DNA of 57,306 nucleotides from Lachnospiraceae bacterium (lineage in GTDB: Bacteria > Bacillota > Clostridia > Lachnospirales > Lachnospiraceae), in contig JAILJC010000083.1 in NCBI GenBank assembly GCA_024694965.1, positions 1 to 57,306 of the forward strand, in the 5' to 3' direction. The position numbers and the translations under genes were made by a program. Position 1 is the first letter of the stretch. Each line of letters starts with the position of its first letter. Below, piece after piece: positions 646 to 34,732 of this stretch. The notes under the pieces were generated by a model. The model worked only from the letters and a program-made list of their open reading frames with translations, made no database searches and had not been told where the DNA came from.

Positions 646-3315
646 GTGAACTACGGCAGGCGAGGAACCAGAAAAAGGCGTAAGGCCATCACATCGGTAA
701 TCCCCAAGTTCGGTAACTTCTTCGGAACGTTACTGTTTAAGTTCGTTGTGCTTGCGGCAGCATGCATGATGGCAGCAGGGCTTTGTGCGGGAGTCGGCCT
801 GTTCATGGGCGTTATAGATACGGCTCCGGATGTATCAGGTATTGATGTTTCACCGGCCGGCTATTCCACGACCGTATATGATTCAAAAGGAAATAAGACA
901 GTTAAGCTCGTTGCCGAGAATTCAAACAGGATATATGTAACGATAGATAAGATCCCCGAGCATCTGCAGAATGCGTTTATAGCGATAGAGGATGAGCGTT
1001 TCAGGACCCATAACGGAATTGATATAAAAGGTATCATGCGTGCCGGCGTAAAGGCCCTGACTTCGGGTGATCTGTCACAGGGTGCTTCCACGATCACGCA
1101 GCAGCTGCTTAAGAACAACGTATTTACTTCGTGGACTTCCGAGTCGAGCAAGATCGAGAAGTTCAGGCGAAAGTTCCAGGAGCAGTACTGTGCGGTACAG
1201 CTTGAAAAGATAATGGATAAGGACAGTATCCTTGAAAATTACCTGAATACCATAAACTTGGGACAGGGAACACTGGGAGTACAGGCGGCTTCAAACCGCT
1301 ACTTCGGTAAGCCCGCATCCGAGCTTACGATATCCGAATCGGCTGTAATAGCGGCCATCACTCAGAATCCTACCAAGTGGAACCCCATATCCCATCCCGA
1401 AAACAATGCGGAACGCCGTGAGGAAGTTCTTCGTAAGATGCGGGATCAGGGTTACATAACACCGGCCGAATATGACGATGCGATAAATGATGATGTCTAT
1501 TCCAGGATCAAGATAGTGGATGAAACGGTCGAGAAGGAATCGATATATACCTACTTCGTGGATGAGCTTACGGAGCAGGTCATTACAGACCTTCAGGAAA
1601 TAAAGGGATATTCATATACTCAGGCATATAATGCGCTGTATTCCGGCGGCCTCAGCATCTTTACGACGCAGGATCCCGACATACAGAGGATATGTGATGA
1701 GGAGTTTTTGAATGAGGCGAATTTCCCGGCAAATGTCAAGTGGTATCTTAAGTATGAGCTTACATTTGAGGATGCTGACGGTGAAAGGGTTAATTTCTCA
1801 ACACAGCAGTTTGAATCTTATTTCAAACAGGACAACAAGCGCTTCAACAGTATATTCGACTCGCAGGAGGCAGCCGAGGAGAAGATAGAAGAGTACAAGG
1901 CCGCCATGCAGAAGCCGGGATATAAGTTCGTTGCCGAGAATATCTCTTTAACACCGCAGCCGCAGGCATCGGTTGTTATAATGGATCACACAACGGGTGA
2001 GGTAAAGGCTGTTGTCGGAGGCCGTGGTACCAAAGCGGCCAGCCTTACGCTTAACAGGGCAACGGATACAAAACGTCAGCCCGGATCGTGCTTTAAGGTG
2101 CTTGCCGCATATGCTCCGGCGCTTGATTCTGCAGGATTTACCCTTGCATCCACGCAGGTGGACGAACCGTTTAATTACTCCAACGGACGTCCGGTTAAGA
2201 ACTGGTACAAGGGCTACAAGGGAACCTGTACGTTAAGGCTTGGTATCGAGCAGTCACTTAATATAGTTGCGGTCAAGACACTTACGGATATCACGCCGCA
2301 GCTCGGATACGATTATCTGTTAAACTTCGGATTCACCACTTTGGTAAGCAGGAGGACCGAGGCGGACGGAAGCGTTTCATCGGATATCACCCAGGCGCTT
2401 GCACTCGGCGGTGTTACGGACGGAGTAACAAACCTGGAACTTACGGCGGCTTATGCGACTATCGCAAACAAGGGCGTTTACAACAGGCCGGCGTTCTATA
2501 CAAAGATAATAGATCATGACGGCAACGTGCTCATAGACAATACTCCGAAGAGCCGTCAGGTATTAAAGGATACTACCGCGTGGCTGCTTACTTCAGCCAT
2601 GGAGGATGTTGTAAAGAAGGGAACCGGAGCCAAGGTTAACTTCGGCAACATGGCCATTGCCGGTAAGACCGGTACCACATCGAGCAACGTTGATGTATGG
2701 TTTGCCGGTTATACGCCGTATTATACATGCGCGGCATGGTCGGGTTATGATAATAACGTCCACATGGTCGGAAACGAGACAAGTACGGCCAAGCTGTTGT
2801 GGAAGTCGATAATGGGAAGGCTGCATGAGAACCTCGAATACAAGGATTTTGTCAAGCCTGAGGGCGTTGTCACGGCGACGATATGCCGTAAGTCGGGAAA
2901 GATGGCGGTTGCCGGGCTGTGTTCGGCCGACGGCAGTGCCGTTACAGAGTTCTTTGACGAGTCAAAGCTTCCCAAGGAATCGTGTGACTGCCATGTACTT
3001 GGCAAGGTATGTGCTGTGACGGGACTAAGGGCAGCGGATACCTGCCCGTATGCTACACCGGGAATAATAGTGGTATCCCCGGACGGCAATCAGAATGCAT
3101 CACTGCCATACTGCATACACAGTTATCTAAACGGTGTACCGCTGTATGACCCCACAAATCCCGTGAACGCTGCTTATCTTGCGAACCCGGATGCAGCGGC
3201 GGCAGCAGAAGCACAGGCTAAGGAGGCACAGGCGGCGGCAGCGGCGGCAGCAGCGGCTGCGGCACAGGCGGCACCGGCGCTTCCCGCACTCGGAGGAGCT
3301 GTGCCGGGGCAGTAA
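646..3315 (+). CDS. Class A penicillin-binding protein (PBP1A type, bifunctional transglycosylase/transpeptidase)
   Basis: Polymerises lipid II glycan strands and cross-links peptides outside the membrane. An N-terminal basic stretch precedes one membrane segment (about residues 30-55). The GT51 glycosyltransferase domain shows EDERFRTHNGID, QGASTITQQLLKN and LNTINLGQGTLGVQAA. The transpeptidase domain shows the SxxK serine in PGSCFK, the SLN motif and KTGTT. Residues about 850-885 are an Ala/Gln-rich tail encoded by gcg/gca repeats, a typical disordered end. The start is GTG 646, chosen because GGAGG at 635-639 is 6 bases upstream. At 889 residues the length is normal for the family. Followed after 73 bases by dapA, another cell-wall precursor gene. 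Confidence 0.93.
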   Translation: MNYGRRGTRKRRKAITSVIPKFGNFFGTLLFKFVVLAAACMMAAGLCAGVGLFMGVIDTAPDVSGIDVSPAGYSTTVYDSKGNKTVKLVAENSNRIYVTIDKIPEHLQNAFIAIEDERFRTHNGIDIKGIMRAGVKALTSGDLSQGASTITQQLLKNNVFTSWTSESSKIEKFRRKFQEQYCAVQLEKIMDKDSILENYLNTINLGQGTLGVQAASNRYFGKPASELTISESAVIAAITQNPTKWNPISHPENNAERREEVLRKMRDQGYITPAEYDDAINDDVYSRIKIVDETVEKESIYTYFVDELTEQVITDLQEIKGYSYTQAYNALYSGGLSIFTTQDPDIQRICDEEFLNEANFPANVKWYLKYELTFEDADGERVNFSTQQFESYFKQDNKRFNSIFDSQEAAEEKIEEYKAAMQKPGYKFVAENISLTPQPQASVVIMDHTTGEVKAVVGGRGTKAASLTLNRATDTKRQPGSCFKVLAAYAPALDSAGFTLASTQVDEPFNYSNGRPVKNWYKGYKGTCTLRLGIEQSLNIVAVKTLTDITPQLGYDYLLNFGFTTLVSRRTEADGSVSSDITQALALGGVTDGVTNLELTAAYATIANKGVYNRPAFYTKIIDHDGNVLIDNTPKSRQVLKDTTAWLLTSAMEDVVKKGTGAKVNFGNMAIAGKTGTTSSNVDVWFAGYTPYYTCAAWSGYDNNVHMVGNETSTAKLLWKSIMGRLHENLEYKDFVKPEGVVTATICRKSGKMAVAGLCSADGSAVTEFFDESKLPKESCDCHVLGKVCAVTGLRAADTCPYATPGIIVVSPDGNQNASLPYCIHSYLNGVPLYDPTNPVNAAYLANPDAAAAAEAQAKEAQAAAAAAAAAAAQAAPALPALGGAVPGQ

Positions 3316-3388
3316 CAGGGCAGTTGTCGGATATACGATGATCGGATGATAAGGTAAACGGAAGTGAATTTACTTAAGGAGGTATGAC

Positions 3389-4273
3389 ATGGCTATTTTC
3401 AAGGGAGCCGGTGTTGCGATCACAACACCTTTTAAAGCAAACGGAGATGTTGATTACGATACGTTCAGGGAACAGATCGAATACCAGATAGCAAACGGAA
3501 CGGATGCGATCATTGTCTGCGGCACAACGGGTGAGGCTTCATGTCTGTCGCATGAGGAACATCTTGAATGTATCAGGTTCTGTGCCGAGGTGGTAAACAA
3601 GCGTATCCCGGTGATAGCGGGTACGGGCTCCAACTGTACCGAGACGGCGATCTATCTGTCGACCGAGGCCGAGAAGTACGGAGTTGATGCGCTTTTGGTT
3701 GTAACACCTTACTATAATAAGGCTACACAGAAGGGTCTTATCGAACACTTTACGATGGTGGCCGACAGCGTTAAGCTTCCCATCATTCTTTACAATGTTC
3801 CGAGCAGGACCGGATGCAACATCCAGCCCGAAACGGCCGCGACTTTAGCCAAAACAGTTAAGAACATAGTAGCCATTAAGGAAGCGAGCGGTAACATTTC
3901 ACAGGTTGCGAAGCTGATGCAGCTTGCTGACGGTGCGATCGACCTTTATTCGGGAAATGATGACCAGATAGTTCCGATCCTCTCGCTCGGAGGTCTGGGA
4001 GTTATATCCGTTTTGTCGAATGTGGCTCCGAAGCAGACACATGATATAGTGGCAGCATTTCATGAAGGAGATGTCAAGAAGAGCTGCGAGCTGCAACTCA
4101 AGGCACTTCCCCTTTGCAACGCTTTATTCTGCGAGGTTAATCCCATTCCAGTTAAAAAGGGCGTTCAGCTCCAGGGAAGGGACGGCGGAGTCTTAAGGAG
4201 GCCTTTAGCCGAGATGGATCCCGAAAATGCAAAGAAGCTTGAAAAAGCAATGAAAGAATACGGGGTACTGTAA
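3389..4273 (+). CDS. dapA: 4-hydroxy-tetrahydrodipicolinate synthase
   Basis: Condenses pyruvate with aspartate semialdehyde, the first committed step of the diaminopimelate/lysine branch. The 294-residue length is typical. Visible family marks are the GTTGEA phosphate/pyruvate loop, the catalytic tyrosine in LYNVPSRTG and the Schiff-base lysine in VAIKEASG. AAGGAGG sits 6 bases before the ATG. The stop codon overlaps the dapB start (TAATG), indicating translational coupling. The upstream wall-synthesis gene and downstream dapB make a peptidoglycan-precursor context. Confidence 0.96.
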   Translation: MAIFKGAGVAITTPFKANGDVDYDTFREQIEYQIANGTDAIIVCGTTGEASCLSHEEHLECIRFCAEVVNKRIPVIAGTGSNCTETAIYLSTEAEKYGVDALLVVTPYYNKATQKGLIEHFTMVADSVKLPIILYNVPSRTGCNIQPETAATLAKTVKNIVAIKEASGNISQVAKLMQLADGAIDLYSGNDDQIVPILSLGGLGVISVLSNVAPKQTHDIVAAFHEGDVKKSCELQLKALPLCNALFCEVNPIPVKKGVQLQGRDGGVLRRPLAEMDPENAKKLEKAMKEYGVL

Positions 4274-31593: not shown

Positions 31594-31631
31594 AAAAACC
31601 TATTGACATAGTAGGTTAATTATGTTAGATT
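31594..31631 (+). promoter_or_regulatory. Promoter and putative Rrf2-family operator of the metY-cysK operon
   Basis: TTGACA (31603-31608), 17-base spacer, TAGATT (31626-31631). The -35 is embedded in AACCTATTGACATAGTAGGTT, whose ends AACCTA and TAGGTT form a 6-bp inverted repeat. Nearly the same bases surround the -35 of the iscS operon at 34697-34716. The Rrf2-family regulator encoded between the two operons is the natural candidate to bind them. Confidence 0.8.
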
Positions 31632-31661
31632 ATACCCATCGAAACCAAAAGGAGGCACGAA

Positions 31662-31787
31662 ATGCATAACTTCACAGTAAGCAGATGGATAAATACAATG
31701 TGTTGTCGAATGCGGGACACCCGGGCAGATCATATGACCGGAGCTTTCGGCTGCTCATATCCGCATCCTGATATCATGCGATGTTGA
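31662..31787 (+). CDS. Leader peptide with tandem Cys codons (attenuator control peptide)
   Basis: A 41-codon frame starting at ATG 31662, 6 bases after a strong AAAAGGAGG, ending TGA 31785-31787. It begins MHNFTVSRWINTMCCRMRDT and has Cys at codons 14, 15, 31 and 41; codons 14-15 are TGT TGT at 31701-31706. No known domain. The frame overlaps RNA arms able to pair with the terminator region downstream, and it precedes O-acetylhomoserine and O-acetylserine sulfhydrylase genes. I infer that the ribosome's progress over the Cys codons reports charged tRNA-Cys supply. The long tail after the Cys pair is unusual for a minimal leader. Confidence 0.72.
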   Translation: MHNFTVSRWINTMCCRMRDTRADHMTGAFGCSYPHPDIMRC

Positions 31788-31851
31788 AGCAGTAAAGCGC
31801 AGGAGTCATTTGCCCGGGTGCTGATCATACAGCAGCCGTTTTTTTATGGCT
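31718..31851 (+). promoter_or_regulatory. Putative cysteine-responsive transcription attenuator
   Basis: CACCCGGGCA (31718-31727) is fully complementary to TGCCCGGGTG (31811-31820), with ATGAC (31734-31738)/GTCAT (31805-31809) extending the pairing. The latter arm overlaps the 5' side of an intrinsic terminator: GG-TGCTG (31817-31823) pairs with CAGCA-G-CC (31830-31837, one bulge), loop ATCATA, then seven T residues (31839-31845). The two structures exclude each other. A second possible pairing, CGGCTGCT (31748-31755) with AGCAGCCG (31831-31838), also uses the terminator arm. Confidence 0.72.
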
Positions 31852-31918: not shown

Positions 31919-33202
31919 ATGAGCAACTATAAATTCGAAACATTACAGTTACATGTAGGACAGGAACAGGCGGATCCCGCAACCGATTCACGTGCGGTAC
32001 CTATTTATCAGACAACATCATATGTTTTTCATAACAGCAAGCATGCTGCCGACAGGTTTGGACTTGCGGATCCCGGAAATATTTACGGAAGGCTCACGAA
32101 TTCCACGCAGGATGTGCTCGAGCGCAGGGTAGCAGCCCTTGAAGGAGGAAGCGCAGCACTGGCTGTTTCTTCGGGTGCGGCGGCTATAAGCTATGCGATC
32201 GAAGCACTTGCGGCAAACGGAGGACATATCGTTGCCCAGAAAACCATCTACGGCGGAACCTTCAACCTTCTTGCACATACACTTCCCCAGTACGGTATAA
32301 AGACAACTTTCGTCAATATCCATGACCTTAAGGAAGTGGAAGAGGCCATTACGGATGATACCAGGGCGATCTTCCTTGAAACCCTCGGCAATCCAAACAG
32401 TGATATACCCGATATCGATGCTGTGGCTGAGCTTGCACATGGGAAGGGTATCCCGGTTGTTATTGATAACACATTCGGAACACCTTACCTCATCCGTCCC
32501 ATCGAGCATGGCGCAGACATCGTTGTGCATTCGGCAACCAAGTTCTTAGGTGGACACGGCACGACACTTGGCGGTATCATAGTAGAGTCAGGCAAGTTTA
32601 ACTGGAAGGCAAGCGGCAAGTATCCTAACATAGCCGCTCCCAATCCCAGTTACCATGGCGTATCGTTCTATGATGTGGTAGGCCCTGCGGCATTCGTAAC
32701 ATATATCCGTGCGATACTTTTGCGTGACACGGGAGCCGCGATCTCACCGTTTAATGCATTCCTGCTCATTCAGGGTGTTGAAACGCTTTCGCTGAGGCTT
32801 GAAAGGCACGCCGAGAATACGAAGAAGGTCGTTGAATTCTTAAGCAAACATGCAAAGGTTGAAAAGGTTAACCATCCTTCGCTTCCCGAGCATCCGGACC
32901 ATGCTTTGTATGAAAAGTACTTTAAGGACGGCGGCGGTTCGATATTCACATTTGACATTAAGGGCGGTAAAGAAGAGGCATGGAAGTTCATCGATAACCT
33001 TGAGATATTCTCTCTTCTTGCAAACGTAGCCGATGTTAAGAGCCTTGTGATCCATCCGGCATCGACAACTCATTCTCAGCTGTCCGAGGAGGAGCTTCTG
33101 GATCAGGGCATTAAGCAGAATACTATCAGGCTCTCGATAGGAACGGAACACATTGACGATATCATCGCCGATCTTGAAAAGGGATTTGCAGCTATAGGTT
33201 AA
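31919..33202 (+). CDS. metY: O-acetylhomoserine sulfhydrylase (second MetY-like enzyme)
   Basis: A 427-residue PLP enzyme making homocysteine from O-acetylhomoserine and a sulfur donor. Motifs: YGRLTNSTQDVLERRVAALEGG, written in two parts as YGRLTNSTQD and ALEGGSAAL; SSGAAAISYA; YGGTFNLL; VVIDNTFGTPYL; PLP lysine in HSATKFLGGHGTT. Of the three copies in the window it is closest to textbook MetY. It is the first structural gene after the Cys leader and attenuator, so its expression should rise when cysteine is short. AGGAGG precedes the ATG; cysK follows after 45 bases. Confidence 0.9.
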   Translation: MSNYKFETLQLHVGQEQADPATDSRAVPIYQTTSYVFHNSKHAADRFGLADPGNIYGRLTNSTQDVLERRVAALEGGSAALAVSSGAAAISYAIEALAANGGHIVAQKTIYGGTFNLLAHTLPQYGIKTTFVNIHDLKEVEEAITDDTRAIFLETLGNPNSDIPDIDAVAELAHGKGIPVVIDNTFGTPYLIRPIEHGADIVVHSATKFLGGHGTTLGGIIVESGKFNWKASGKYPNIAAPNPSYHGVSFYDVVGPAAFVTYIRAILLRDTGAAISPFNAFLLIQGVETLSLRLERHAENTKKVVEFLSKHAKVEKVNHPSLPEHPDHALYEKYFKDGGGSIFTFDIKGGKEEAWKFIDNLEIFSLLANVADVKSLVIHPASTTHSQLSEEELLDQGIKQNTIRLSIGTEHIDDIIADLEKGFAAIG

Positions 33203-33247: not shown

Positions 33248-34183
33248 ATGTCAAACATTTATAAAGGTACACTCGGACTTGTAGGAAACACACCTTTAGT
33301 TGAGGTAGTAAATATAGAGAAGGATCTTGCGCTTGAGGCAACCGTCCTTGTAAAACTTGAATACTTTAATCCGGCCGGAAGCGTTAAGGACCGTATCGCA
33401 AAGGCCATGATCGAGGATGCGGAGCAGAAGGGCCTTCTTAAGAAAGGATCCGTTATCATCGAGCCTACGAGCGGAAATACCGGTATAGGACTTGCGGCGA
33501 TCGCAGCATCCAAGGGTTATCGCGTGATCCTTACAATGCCTGAGACCATGAGCGTTGAGCGCAGGAGCATACTTAAGAGCTACGGTGCCGAGATCGTATT
33601 AACGGAGGGGCCCAAGGGCATGAAGGGAGCCATTGAGAAGGCAGATGAGCTGGCTAAGGAGATCCCCAACAGCTTCATCCCCGGACAGTTTGTAAATCCT
33701 GCAAATCCGGCGATCCATAAGGCAACGACCGGTCCCGAGATCTGGAAGGATACGGACGGCAAAGTTGATATCTTCATCGCAGGCGTAGGCACGGGAGGTA
33801 CCGTAACCGGTACGGGTGAGTACCTTAAGGAGCAGAATCCGAATATCAAGGTAGTTGCCCTTGAACCCGAGGATTCACCGGTGCTTTCGGAGGGAAGGGC
33901 AGGTGCCCATAAGATACAGGGTATCGGAGCCGGATTTGTTCCCGATGTGCTTAACACGAAGATATATGACGAGGTATTCAAGGCTTCGAATAATGATGCA
34001 TTTGAAACAGCAAAGCTTCTTGCAAGGAAGGAAGGCATTTCCGTAGGTATTTCCTCGGGAGCCGCACTCTTTGGAGCTCTTGAGTACGCTAAGAAGCCCG
34101 AAAACAAAGGTAAGGTTATAGTGGCACTTCTTCCCGACAGCGGCGACAGATATTATTCGACGGCATTGTTCACTGAGGGATGA
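33248..34183 (+). CDS. cysK: Cysteine synthase (O-acetylserine sulfhydrylase)
   Basis: Makes cysteine from O-acetylserine and sulfide. The 311-residue protein shows the PLP lysine in NPAGSVKDRIAKAMIEDAE (K in GSVKDR), the substrate loop EPTSGNTGIGLA, ILTMPETMSVERR, and the PLP-phosphate loop GVGTGGTVTGTG. All are intact. AAGGAGGAG precedes the ATG. The following gene is a CymR-like regulator; in Bacillus subtilis CysK binds CymR to sense cysteine precursors, which makes this adjacency meaningful. The matching serine acetyltransferase gene lies 9 kb downstream in the same island. Confidence 0.95.
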   Translation: MSNIYKGTLGLVGNTPLVEVVNIEKDLALEATVLVKLEYFNPAGSVKDRIAKAMIEDAEQKGLLKKGSVIIEPTSGNTGIGLAAIAASKGYRVILTMPETMSVERRSILKSYGAEIVLTEGPKGMKGAIEKADELAKEIPNSFIPGQFVNPANPAIHKATTGPEIWKDTDGKVDIFIAGVGTGGTVTGTGEYLKEQNPNIKVVALEPEDSPVLSEGRAGAHKIQGIGAGFVPDVLNTKIYDEVFKASNNDAFETAKLLARKEGISVGISSGAALFGALEYAKKPENKGKVIVALLPDSGDRYYSTALFTEG

Positions 34184-34210: not shown

Positions 34211-34654
34211 ATGAGAGTTTCTACAAGGGTTGAATACGGACTTCTGGCACTTGCGGATATCGCGCTTTATTCTGAAAACGGGGCCTCTGTCTCGGCCCCG
34301 GAGATATCCCAGCGGGAAGGAATATCAAAAAAATACCTTGAGCAGATACTGCCGCTATTAAGACAGGCAGGACTTATAAGGGCTCAGAAAGGTTTAAGGG
34401 GCGGGTATTCCCTGTCCCGCAGCGCAGATACCATGAAGATGTCGGAAGTCTTAAACGCCCTGGATAACACCATCCTTGAGGAAATGGATCATCCGGGAGG
34501 CGGAACACAGGGCCTTCGCAGTGCCGTCGATGAATGCTTCTGGGGAAAGTTAAACAATGTCCTTACGGGATTTGCCGAGGGCAGCAGCTTTTCGGATTTT
34601 GTAAAGGACTGCCGGGACAGGATGGCACCCGGCTGGGATATGTACGTAATATAG
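34211..34654 (+). CDS. Rrf2-family transcriptional regulator, CymR-like
   Basis: A 147-residue winged-helix repressor of the Rrf2 family: MRVSTRVEYGLLALADIALY, then EGISKKYLEQILPLLRQAGL (recognition region) and GLRGGYSLSR (wing). IscR-type members bind an Fe-S cluster with three closely spaced Cys; here only Cys109 and Cys133 occur, so a CymR-like, clusterless sensor is more likely. It directly follows cysK, whose product is the known CymR partner in Bacillus. The two flanking promoters share a probable operator. The symbol cymR is plausible but not proven. Confidence 0.87.
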   Translation: MRVSTRVEYGLLALADIALYSENGASVSAPEISQREGISKKYLEQILPLLRQAGLIRAQKGLRGGYSLSRSADTMKMSEVLNALDNTILEEMDHPGGGTQGLRSAVDECFWGKLNNVLTGFAEGSSFSDFVKDCRDRMAPGWDMYVI

Positions 34655-34694: not shown

Positions 34695-34732
34695 CAAAAC
34701 CCATTGACATAGTAGGCAGATGTCGCTATAAT
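34695..34732 (+). promoter_or_regulatory. Promoter and putative Rrf2-family operator of the iscS operon
   Basis: TTGACA (34704-34709), 17-base spacer, TATAAT (34727-34732). The bases around the -35, AAACCCATTGACATAGTAGG, match those at the metY-cysK promoter except for one base over about 20. The left arm here is CCC rather than CCT, so the inverted repeat is weaker than in the first site. Confidence 0.8.

Follow-up and report, generated by a model that had tools for sequence, protein, structure and literature searches.

Amino-acid genes of Firmicutes are usually controlled by T-boxes and riboswitches, and in the trp and his attenuators of Enterobacteria the position of the ribosome on regulatory codons determines whether an antiterminator or a terminator is formed. 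The same two alternatives are proposed here for a leader of Clostridia, found upstream of metY and cysK in the draft genome (2.76 Mb) of a Lachnospiraceae bacterium; the whole stretch of DNA analysed, a contig of 57,306 nt (C62), is hereafter referred to as the window. The Clostridia leader would differ from the trp and his attenuators in its response to cysteine, in a conserved antiterminator of three helices (P1, P2, and P3), and in constituting one RNA family present at many loci, and its putative protector hairpin is less firm than theirs. Short Cys-coding leader ORFs at the head of cys operons in mycobacteria and other actinobacteria were reportedly the subject of work by Canestrari in 2020.

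Leader-peptide attenuation in Firmicutes has been described for the his leader peptides located before hisS and hisZ in Bacilli (PMC2965389), which concern histidine and paralogous hisS genes, whereas the Clostridia leader concerns cysteine and several kinds of targets. That 2010 paper states that, before these his leaders, its authors were aware of leader-peptide systems only in Proteobacteria and Actinobacteria, the atypical ermC aside. According to PMC1262725, the cys operons of mycobacteria and other actinobacteria likewise have a Cys-rich short ORF before sulfur genes, presumed to be cysteine-responsive, with Cys runs near the stop codon and, in Mycobacterium, without a conserved terminator hairpin. 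By contrast, the Clostridia leader has a terminator and an antiterminator, an ORF led by a Shine-Dalgarno site, and a Cys pair that precedes P1 with constant spacing.

The motif uORFC-8-2 of Rhodobacterales, as presented in PMC8632094, is likewise a short uORF. Its tandem Cys codons mostly occupy positions 14 and 15, the same as in the window leader, and it has a 3' U-run fitting an intrinsic terminator; ribosome-mediated attenuation is presumed for it, as for the Clostridia leader. However, that text places uORFC-8-2 in Alphaproteobacteria, exclusively before cysS, and gives it two stems and a rare third one without covariation, whereas the Clostridia leader precedes mainly metY, related PLP enzymes, cysK, and transporters, and combines covarying P1 and P2 with a predicted P3. 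Neither inspection by eye nor Pfam revealed a cysS in the 16 clusters of genes downstream of 189 leaders, and the description of uORFC-8-2 (before cysS, in Rhodobacterales) sets the leader apart from that motif. A search of the open-licence PMC subset found no description of the present element.

We consider that the Clostridia element is very probably a cysteine-responsive, ribosome-mediated transcription attenuator. The first-pass annotation of the window had proposed such a mechanism for a single operon; judged from the comparisons below, the finding is larger, in that the leader represents one conserved RNA family at many loci, a family of cysteine attenuators of Clostridia that would work like classical attenuation. 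It would place a cysteine attenuator of the terminator type before several kinds of sulfur genes in many Clostridia, including rumen and gut bacteria. The leader is easily recognised and would constitute a new RNA family for annotation, predicting cysteine-responsive enzymes and transporters, and could serve as a compact system for studying the control of gene expression by the position of the ribosome and perhaps by tRNA thiolation.

The leader in the window

All the elements of the leader lie on the forward strand. A -35 box (TTGACA, 31603–31608) and, after a 17-nt spacer, a -10 box (TAGATT, 31626–31631) are followed by a Shine-Dalgarno site (AGGAGG, 31650–31655) and by a leader ORF of 41 codons, MHNFTVSRWINTMCCRMRDTRADHMTGAFGCSYPHPDIMRC (31662–31787; ATG at 31662, TGA at 31785–31787). 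The tandem Cys codons proposed to be regulatory (TGT TGT, 31701–31706) occupy codons -5 and -4 relative to P1 and precede CGA ATG (31707–31712), which is near-invariant at this position and possibly forms the 5' strand of a protector hairpin. A further in-frame Cys codon (TGC, codon 31) is found at 31752–31754, and the leader peptide ends with CGA TGT TGA (Arg-Cys-stop, 31779–31787), its last codon being Cys (31782–31784). The 5' arm of the antiterminator helix P1, CACCCGGGCA (31718–31727), forms a perfect 10-bp pairing with the 3' arm, TGCCCGGGTG (31811–31820), and P2, with arms ATGAC (31734–31738) and GTCAT (31805–31809), is nested in P1. The P1 3' arm overlaps the 5' arm of an intrinsic terminator (31815–31845), which consists of a hairpin (31815–31838; predicted fold -13.5 kcal/mol) followed by seven T residues (31839–31845).

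The first-pass annotation had described the 41-codon frame with its strong ribosome site, the Cys pair, and the stop at 31787 as they are found here, and its suggestion that the 10-bp pairing captures the terminator 5' arm agrees with the overlap of the two arms at 31815–31820; the terminator itself, given as 31817–31845, lies close to that claim. The window leader (211 nt) folds only moderately better than its shuffled versions (z -1.92; 4 of 200 shuffles equally good), so the single sequence would be no proof, which comes instead from the comparison below.

The two genes that follow had been named metY and cysK, and both names hold: metY (O-acetylhomoserine/O-acetylserine sulfhydrylase, 31919–33202, forward) and cysK (cysteine synthase A, 33248–34183, forward) score above the cut-offs of TIGR01326 and TIGR01139, respectively. 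They are followed by a gene for an Rrf2-family regulator (34211–34654, forward; TIGR00738), matched below their cut-offs by the IscR and CymR models, and then by genes for a class V aminotransferase (iscS-like), a NifU_N protein (iscU-like), and a second Cys/Met PLP enzyme. A palindrome, CCTATTGACATAGTAGG, of the form CC(T/C)ATTGACATAGTAGG, lies over the -35 box (31599–31615, forward), and a near-identical copy is found before iscS (34700–34716), near the Rrf2 gene; from its sequence and location it is a possible operator of the Rrf2 family. A search with a loose pattern and without shuffled controls located an operator-like CCTATTGACAnAGTAGG within 260 nt upstream of 140 of the 202 leaders compared below. 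These promoters may thus also be under the control of an Rrf2-type repressor. Two known RNA elements occur elsewhere in the window, a TPP riboswitch (RF00059, 23436–23534, reverse strand) and a GA-cis RNA (RF02987, 39456–39537, forward strand).

At the leader itself, no Rfam 15 family was found at the gathering threshold, and only chance matches far below cut-off appeared up to an E value of 10, the single riboswitch among them being a fluoride riboswitch on the other strand (10.1 bits, against a cut-off of 34). A SAM riboswitch was rejected for lack of an Rfam match at the leader. A T-box, in which uncharged tRNA-Cys would bind the leader directly, would follow the same logic (charging of tRNA-Cys) and is known from the same kinds of genes in this phylum, but searches at gathering returned no T-box either for the window or for 15 loci carrying the leader, and none appeared at the leader itself when the limit was relaxed to E 10; we regard this explanation as having a next to negligible chance.

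Comparison of homologous leaders

Two models of the element were used: R1, comprising P1 and P2 and built from 12 leaders, and R2, built from 87 matches (alignment A2, 87 rows). Both were partly built from leaders counted later, and neither includes the Shine-Dalgarno site or the start codon. The first 86 distinct leaders, all analysed by script, came from 26 matches in the genus and 63 in the family, with 3 in common. In the pooled set, 211 aligned matches were reduced to 202 by removing those identical over their first 100 nt, with five order and class matches as well as L139 and L142 left out, and 201 leaders had enough upstream sequence for the frame test. A hold-out of 45 matches gave 36 new leaders after the same redundancy removal and upstream rule.

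A start codon preceded by a Shine-Dalgarno site and open to P1 was found in the Cys frame in 182 of the 201 non-redundant leaders, compared with 7 and 5 in the other frames, and in the hold-out in 32 of 36, compared with 4 and 0. The commonest distance from the start to P1 is 56 nt (81 leaders), and the ORF stops ahead of the P1 3' arm in 181 of 182 leaders (hold-out, 32 of 32). Among the first 86 leaders, 8 fail the start rule, but 6 of these show by eye an in-frame ATG with a weaker ribosome site. Cys is encoded at codon -4 in 170 of 201 leaders (TGC in 9) and at codon -5 in 164 (TGC in 11), and a 10-codon window of the first 86 leaders contains 2.66 Cys codons in frame as against 0.13 and 1.49 in the other two frames; no dominant residue is found at codons -9 and beyond upstream (201 leaders). 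The CGA codon is present at -3 in 186 of 201 leaders, and the ATG next to it in 194 of 201. The hexamer CGATGT recurs in the stretch matching 31779–31787 in 89 of 202 leaders, with about 3 expected from mononucleotide shuffles. By these comparisons, the leader ORF is real.

These data bear on a metabolite-binding riboswitch, in which P1–P2–P3 would bind a sulfur compound as an aptamer, the ORF being incidental. The conservation and covariation of P1 and P2, the P3 predicted in 169 of 189 leaders, and a conservation of the CGAATG nucleotides beyond codon needs would all suit an aptamer. Nevertheless, 182 of 201 leaders preserve the Shine-Dalgarno site, the start, and a single open frame, although these lie outside the models, the Cys codons vary synonymously, the leader has no Rfam riboswitch match, and L108 and L109 lack the P3/P4 region but retain the ORF, the Cys codons, and P1 (the terminator rule failed in both). 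We therefore consider a riboswitch very unlikely. Nascent-peptide arrest, with a Cys-Cys-Arg-Met peptide stalling the ribosome that makes it under the control of a small molecule instead of tRNA-Cys charging, also appears highly improbable, at slightly lower odds still. The motif is conserved as a peptide, and short arrest motifs such as Arg-Leu-Arg are reported for other leaders in PMC8632094. However, the number and order of the Cys codons vary (CC, CMC, CWC, CCW, CCMCMCC) at a constant spacing to P1, and Arg is almost always encoded by CGA (186 of 201), which a peptide constraint does not require. Met codons are frequent among the Cys codons (117 of 201 at -6), so an input from Met is possible for the attenuator.

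The antiterminator covaries strongly. In A2, which was fitted to the model, 93.2% of the cells of the modelled helices are paired; 13 of the 15 modelled pairs have changed on both sides, a number reached in none of 500 shuffles, and 88 cells have changed on both sides, compared with 17 in shuffles. Sliding the partner by 1–3 columns lowered pairing to 17–53%, and RNAalifold alone predicted seven P1 pairs from the same alignment. Changes from G-C to A-U coincide in the P1 5' arm, the P1 3' arm, and partly the terminator 3' arm. With 199 of the 202 rows, own arms paired better than swapped arms both for P1 (-19.9 vs. -18.3, sd 0.07) and for the terminator (-13.8 vs. -13.0, sd 0.08), as they did for P2 (-6.29 vs. 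-5.00, sd 0.08), although the statistics of these swap controls, like those of the shuffles, ignore shared ancestry. The terminator, too, clearly covaries. An intrinsic terminator is present in 192 of the 199 leaders examined, and the terminator rule used on a set of 86 leaders was satisfied by 82, the exceptions being L050, L105, L108, and L109. A P3-like hairpin directly inside P2 was predicted in 169 of 189 leaders, with about 67 expected from mononucleotide shuffles. When folding began at the P1 5' arm and ended before the terminator 3' arm, the P1 arms were predicted to pair with each other in 190 of 197 leaders (short or cut-off leaders were excluded from the stalled and at-stop folds). 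Comparison shows P1 and the terminator as mutually exclusive structures that would compete for one common arm.

The first-pass annotation had made its reading depend on conservation in relatives: the Cys pair, the start codon, and both helices are conserved in many genera, with compensatory changes, and comparison across genera supports the proposed ribosome-mediated cysteine attenuation. Comparison establishes the reading frame with its Cys codons, P1 and the terminator as alternatives, a stop codon ahead of the terminator, and the kind of downstream genes, whereas ribosome stalling, a response to tRNA-Cys charging, a protector hairpin, and the geometry that follows are inferred. The ribosome would start on the leader ORF and, with Cys-tRNA-Cys scarce, would stall on the Cys codons with its front edge just before the P1 5' arm, covering CGA-AUG and leaving P1, P2, and P3 free to fold; P1 would then take the terminator 5' arm, and RNA polymerase would read on into metY and cysK. 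When the A site holds the last Cys codon, P1 starts 14 nt downstream, and a ribosome covers about 12–13 nt beyond this position, so the stalled ribosome would stop just short of P1. With plentiful cysteine, the ribosome would reach the stop codon, some 60 nt beyond the point where P1 begins, and behind it the CGA-AUG segment and the P1 5' arm could fold into the protector hairpin, so that the terminator forms. Our best reading is a conserved, structured P1–P2–P3 antiterminator with a possible protector hairpin.

Distribution and downstream genes

Homologues of metY were found in 94 of 99 related genomes, and many metY loci of the same genus have a homologous leader and others do not. The homologous leaders share the Cys codons, CGAATG, CTCCCGGGC, GGCYGGGGC, CGATGTTG, GCCCGGGAG, and the terminator. 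R1 gave 26 matches in 15 of the 37 genomes of the genus, the 22 genomes without a match including several incomplete ones. In the larger samples, which overlap and include the genome of the window, R1 matched at least 49 of 397 genomes of the family sample (45 of 334 genera) and R2 at least 26 of 392 genomes in the order sample, 13 of 391 in the class sample, and 5 of 398 in the phylum sample, these counts being lower bounds because of stricter filters and the scoring of 8 candidates per genome. The leader family thus reaches genomes of other orders of the class Clostridia. A strict 26-nt DNA pattern, under which loci have Cys codons by construction, was found at 120 or more loci in genome contigs, with 0.23 expected by chance. 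Among the pattern matches listed, 120 of 120 (80 of 80 and 40 of 40) also match R2, L205 and L234 being cut off by the end of the locus, and the hosts include Lachnospiraceae XBB2008 and AC2029, Clostridium porci, Ruminococcaceae KHP2, and Saccharofermentans MAGs.

The genome of the window has three copies of the leader, one upstream of metY, another upstream of a cysK paralogue (C53), and the third upstream of the gene for a transporter binding protein (C145). A downstream gene was assigned for 189 of the 202 leaders, 13 having none by the rule used. The first gene encodes a Cys_Met_Meta_PP enzyme in 106 of 189 cases (89 metY-like, 10 of a second type by motif, and 7 others, some of them also metY-like) and belongs to a binding-protein cluster of the SBP_bac_3/NlpA kind in 54 of 189. 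The remaining targets include permeases, cysK, ABC ATPases (a NIL domain was found in the one tested), a GST-like protein, and isolated cases, some of them without an evident link to sulfur. The conserved elements stand mostly before Cys/Met genes; judged by their family type, the transporters would carry cystine or methionine.

Several individual loci depart from the common arrangement. One contig (G043:C36, L028) has two leaders within about 2 kb, before metY and before a second Cys/Met PLP gene. At L042, a weak second match (1821–1912, reverse strand; 27 bits) with CCCGGG repeats lies just upstream of a full leader and is possibly the remnant of a duplication. L108 and L109 have minimal leaders, with ORFs of 22 and 23 codons and no P3/P4 part. 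The leaders of L016 and L022, in which a short ORF ends in Trp-Cys-stop or Trp-Met-stop without an evident P1, have apparently decayed. A leader followed by metY was also found in two MAGs labelled Gammaproteobacteria (Succinivibrio, L237) and Actinobacteria (Eggerthellaceae, L207), and horizontal transfer or mis-binning may account for both. An Rfam search of 18 metY loci without an intact leader, a set including two loci (L025 and L031) whose leader status was not assessable, L031 being cut at a contig end, revealed no T-box or SAM element and only a Clostridiales-1 RNA (L013); replacement of the leader by a T-box in these relatives was accordingly rejected.

Possible protector hairpin and CGA codons

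The first-pass annotation had the ribosome running over the P1 5' arm when cysteine is sufficient; we suggest that a protector hairpin, rather than ribosome cover of that arm alone, may set the off state. In L143, L144, and L194, the stretch from the Cys codons through CGAATG to P1 forms one long hairpin with GGGGCGTTCG. Pairing of CGAATG with positions +20 to +48 has a mean probability of 0.59, compared with 0.32 when the 3' part is shuffled (mononucleotide), and six contiguous CGAATG pairs, with G-U allowed, are possible in 75 of 197 leaders, compared with 14% in dinucleotide shuffles. The hairpin is modestly more stable with its own than with swapped strands (-7.16 vs. -6.72, sd 0.13). Several results speak against it. 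The P1 5' arm itself is locally paired with a probability of 0.62, little above the 0.49 of mononucleotide shuffles. Folding with the ribosome at the stop codon left half of the P1 5' arm locally paired in 191 of 197 leaders, a count of little weight, since shuffles already reach 0.49. The inner helix of the protector is mostly uncompensated in leaders with CCCAGG in the P1 5' arm, the matching base being absent, and in this region the leader of the window adopts a different and weaker fold. A protector hairpin of the Cys-CGA-ATG segment with the P1 5' arm thus has moderate support at best from these predicted folds. A separate candidate, a stand-alone helix between the P1 5' arm and GGCYGGGG, showed no convincing covariation (own -9.53, swapped -9.38, sd 0.07) and was rejected.

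Conservation of the CGA and ATG codons (186 and 194 of 201) exceeds that of the Cys codons (170 and 164), a pattern not expected from codon sensing alone. In the window, CGA is rare, accounting for 11 of the 643 Arg codons (1.7%) of the 37 long ORFs that alone served as the reference for codon usage. Arg codons directly before the later Cys codons are CGA in 81 of 90 cases, compared with 31 of 196 for the other Arg codons of the same stretch. Pairing may explain CGA at -3, but it does not obviously explain CGA before the later Cys codons. One reading, which we consider unlikely, is that the leader perceives two sulfur signals, the charging of tRNA-Cys and the thiolation of tRNA-Arg(ICG), the latter sensed by CGA. 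According to PMC5372741, E. coli tRNA-Arg(ICG) modified with s2C32 cannot wobble-read CGA. With ample sulfur, the ribosome would then be held up on CGA, where it overlies the edge of P1 and promotes termination; with sulfur in short supply, the pause would fall on Cys and P1 would stay accessible. This two-signal reading is favoured by the CGA counts given above and weakened by the fact that CGA at -3 may simply be base-paired.

In favour of the two-signal reading, ARAGORN identified Arg tRNAs ACG, TCT, CCG, and CCT, and no TCG, at 57 tRNA places of the leader-bearing isolate AC2029, and the Arg ACG tRNAs carry C32; against it, the 36 tRNA places of the draft genome of the window yielded no Arg tRNA of either type, ACG or TCG. 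Also in its favour, TtcA-like genes are present in 33 of the 37 genomes of the genus, and in the genome of the window one of them is the second gene after the leader-cysK unit; against it, none reaches the family cut-off, and they do not separate genomes with the leader from those without it. This second leader of the genome (L321, G000:C53; 658–4189) precedes cysK (851–1783), and the next gene (1954–3015) looks by eye like a rhodanese/TusA/DsrE fusion. It is followed by the gene for the TtcA-like protein (3050–4189), for which the best NCBIfam match, NF007972, is below cut-off. This gene set possibly constitutes a sulfur relay to tRNA thiolation.
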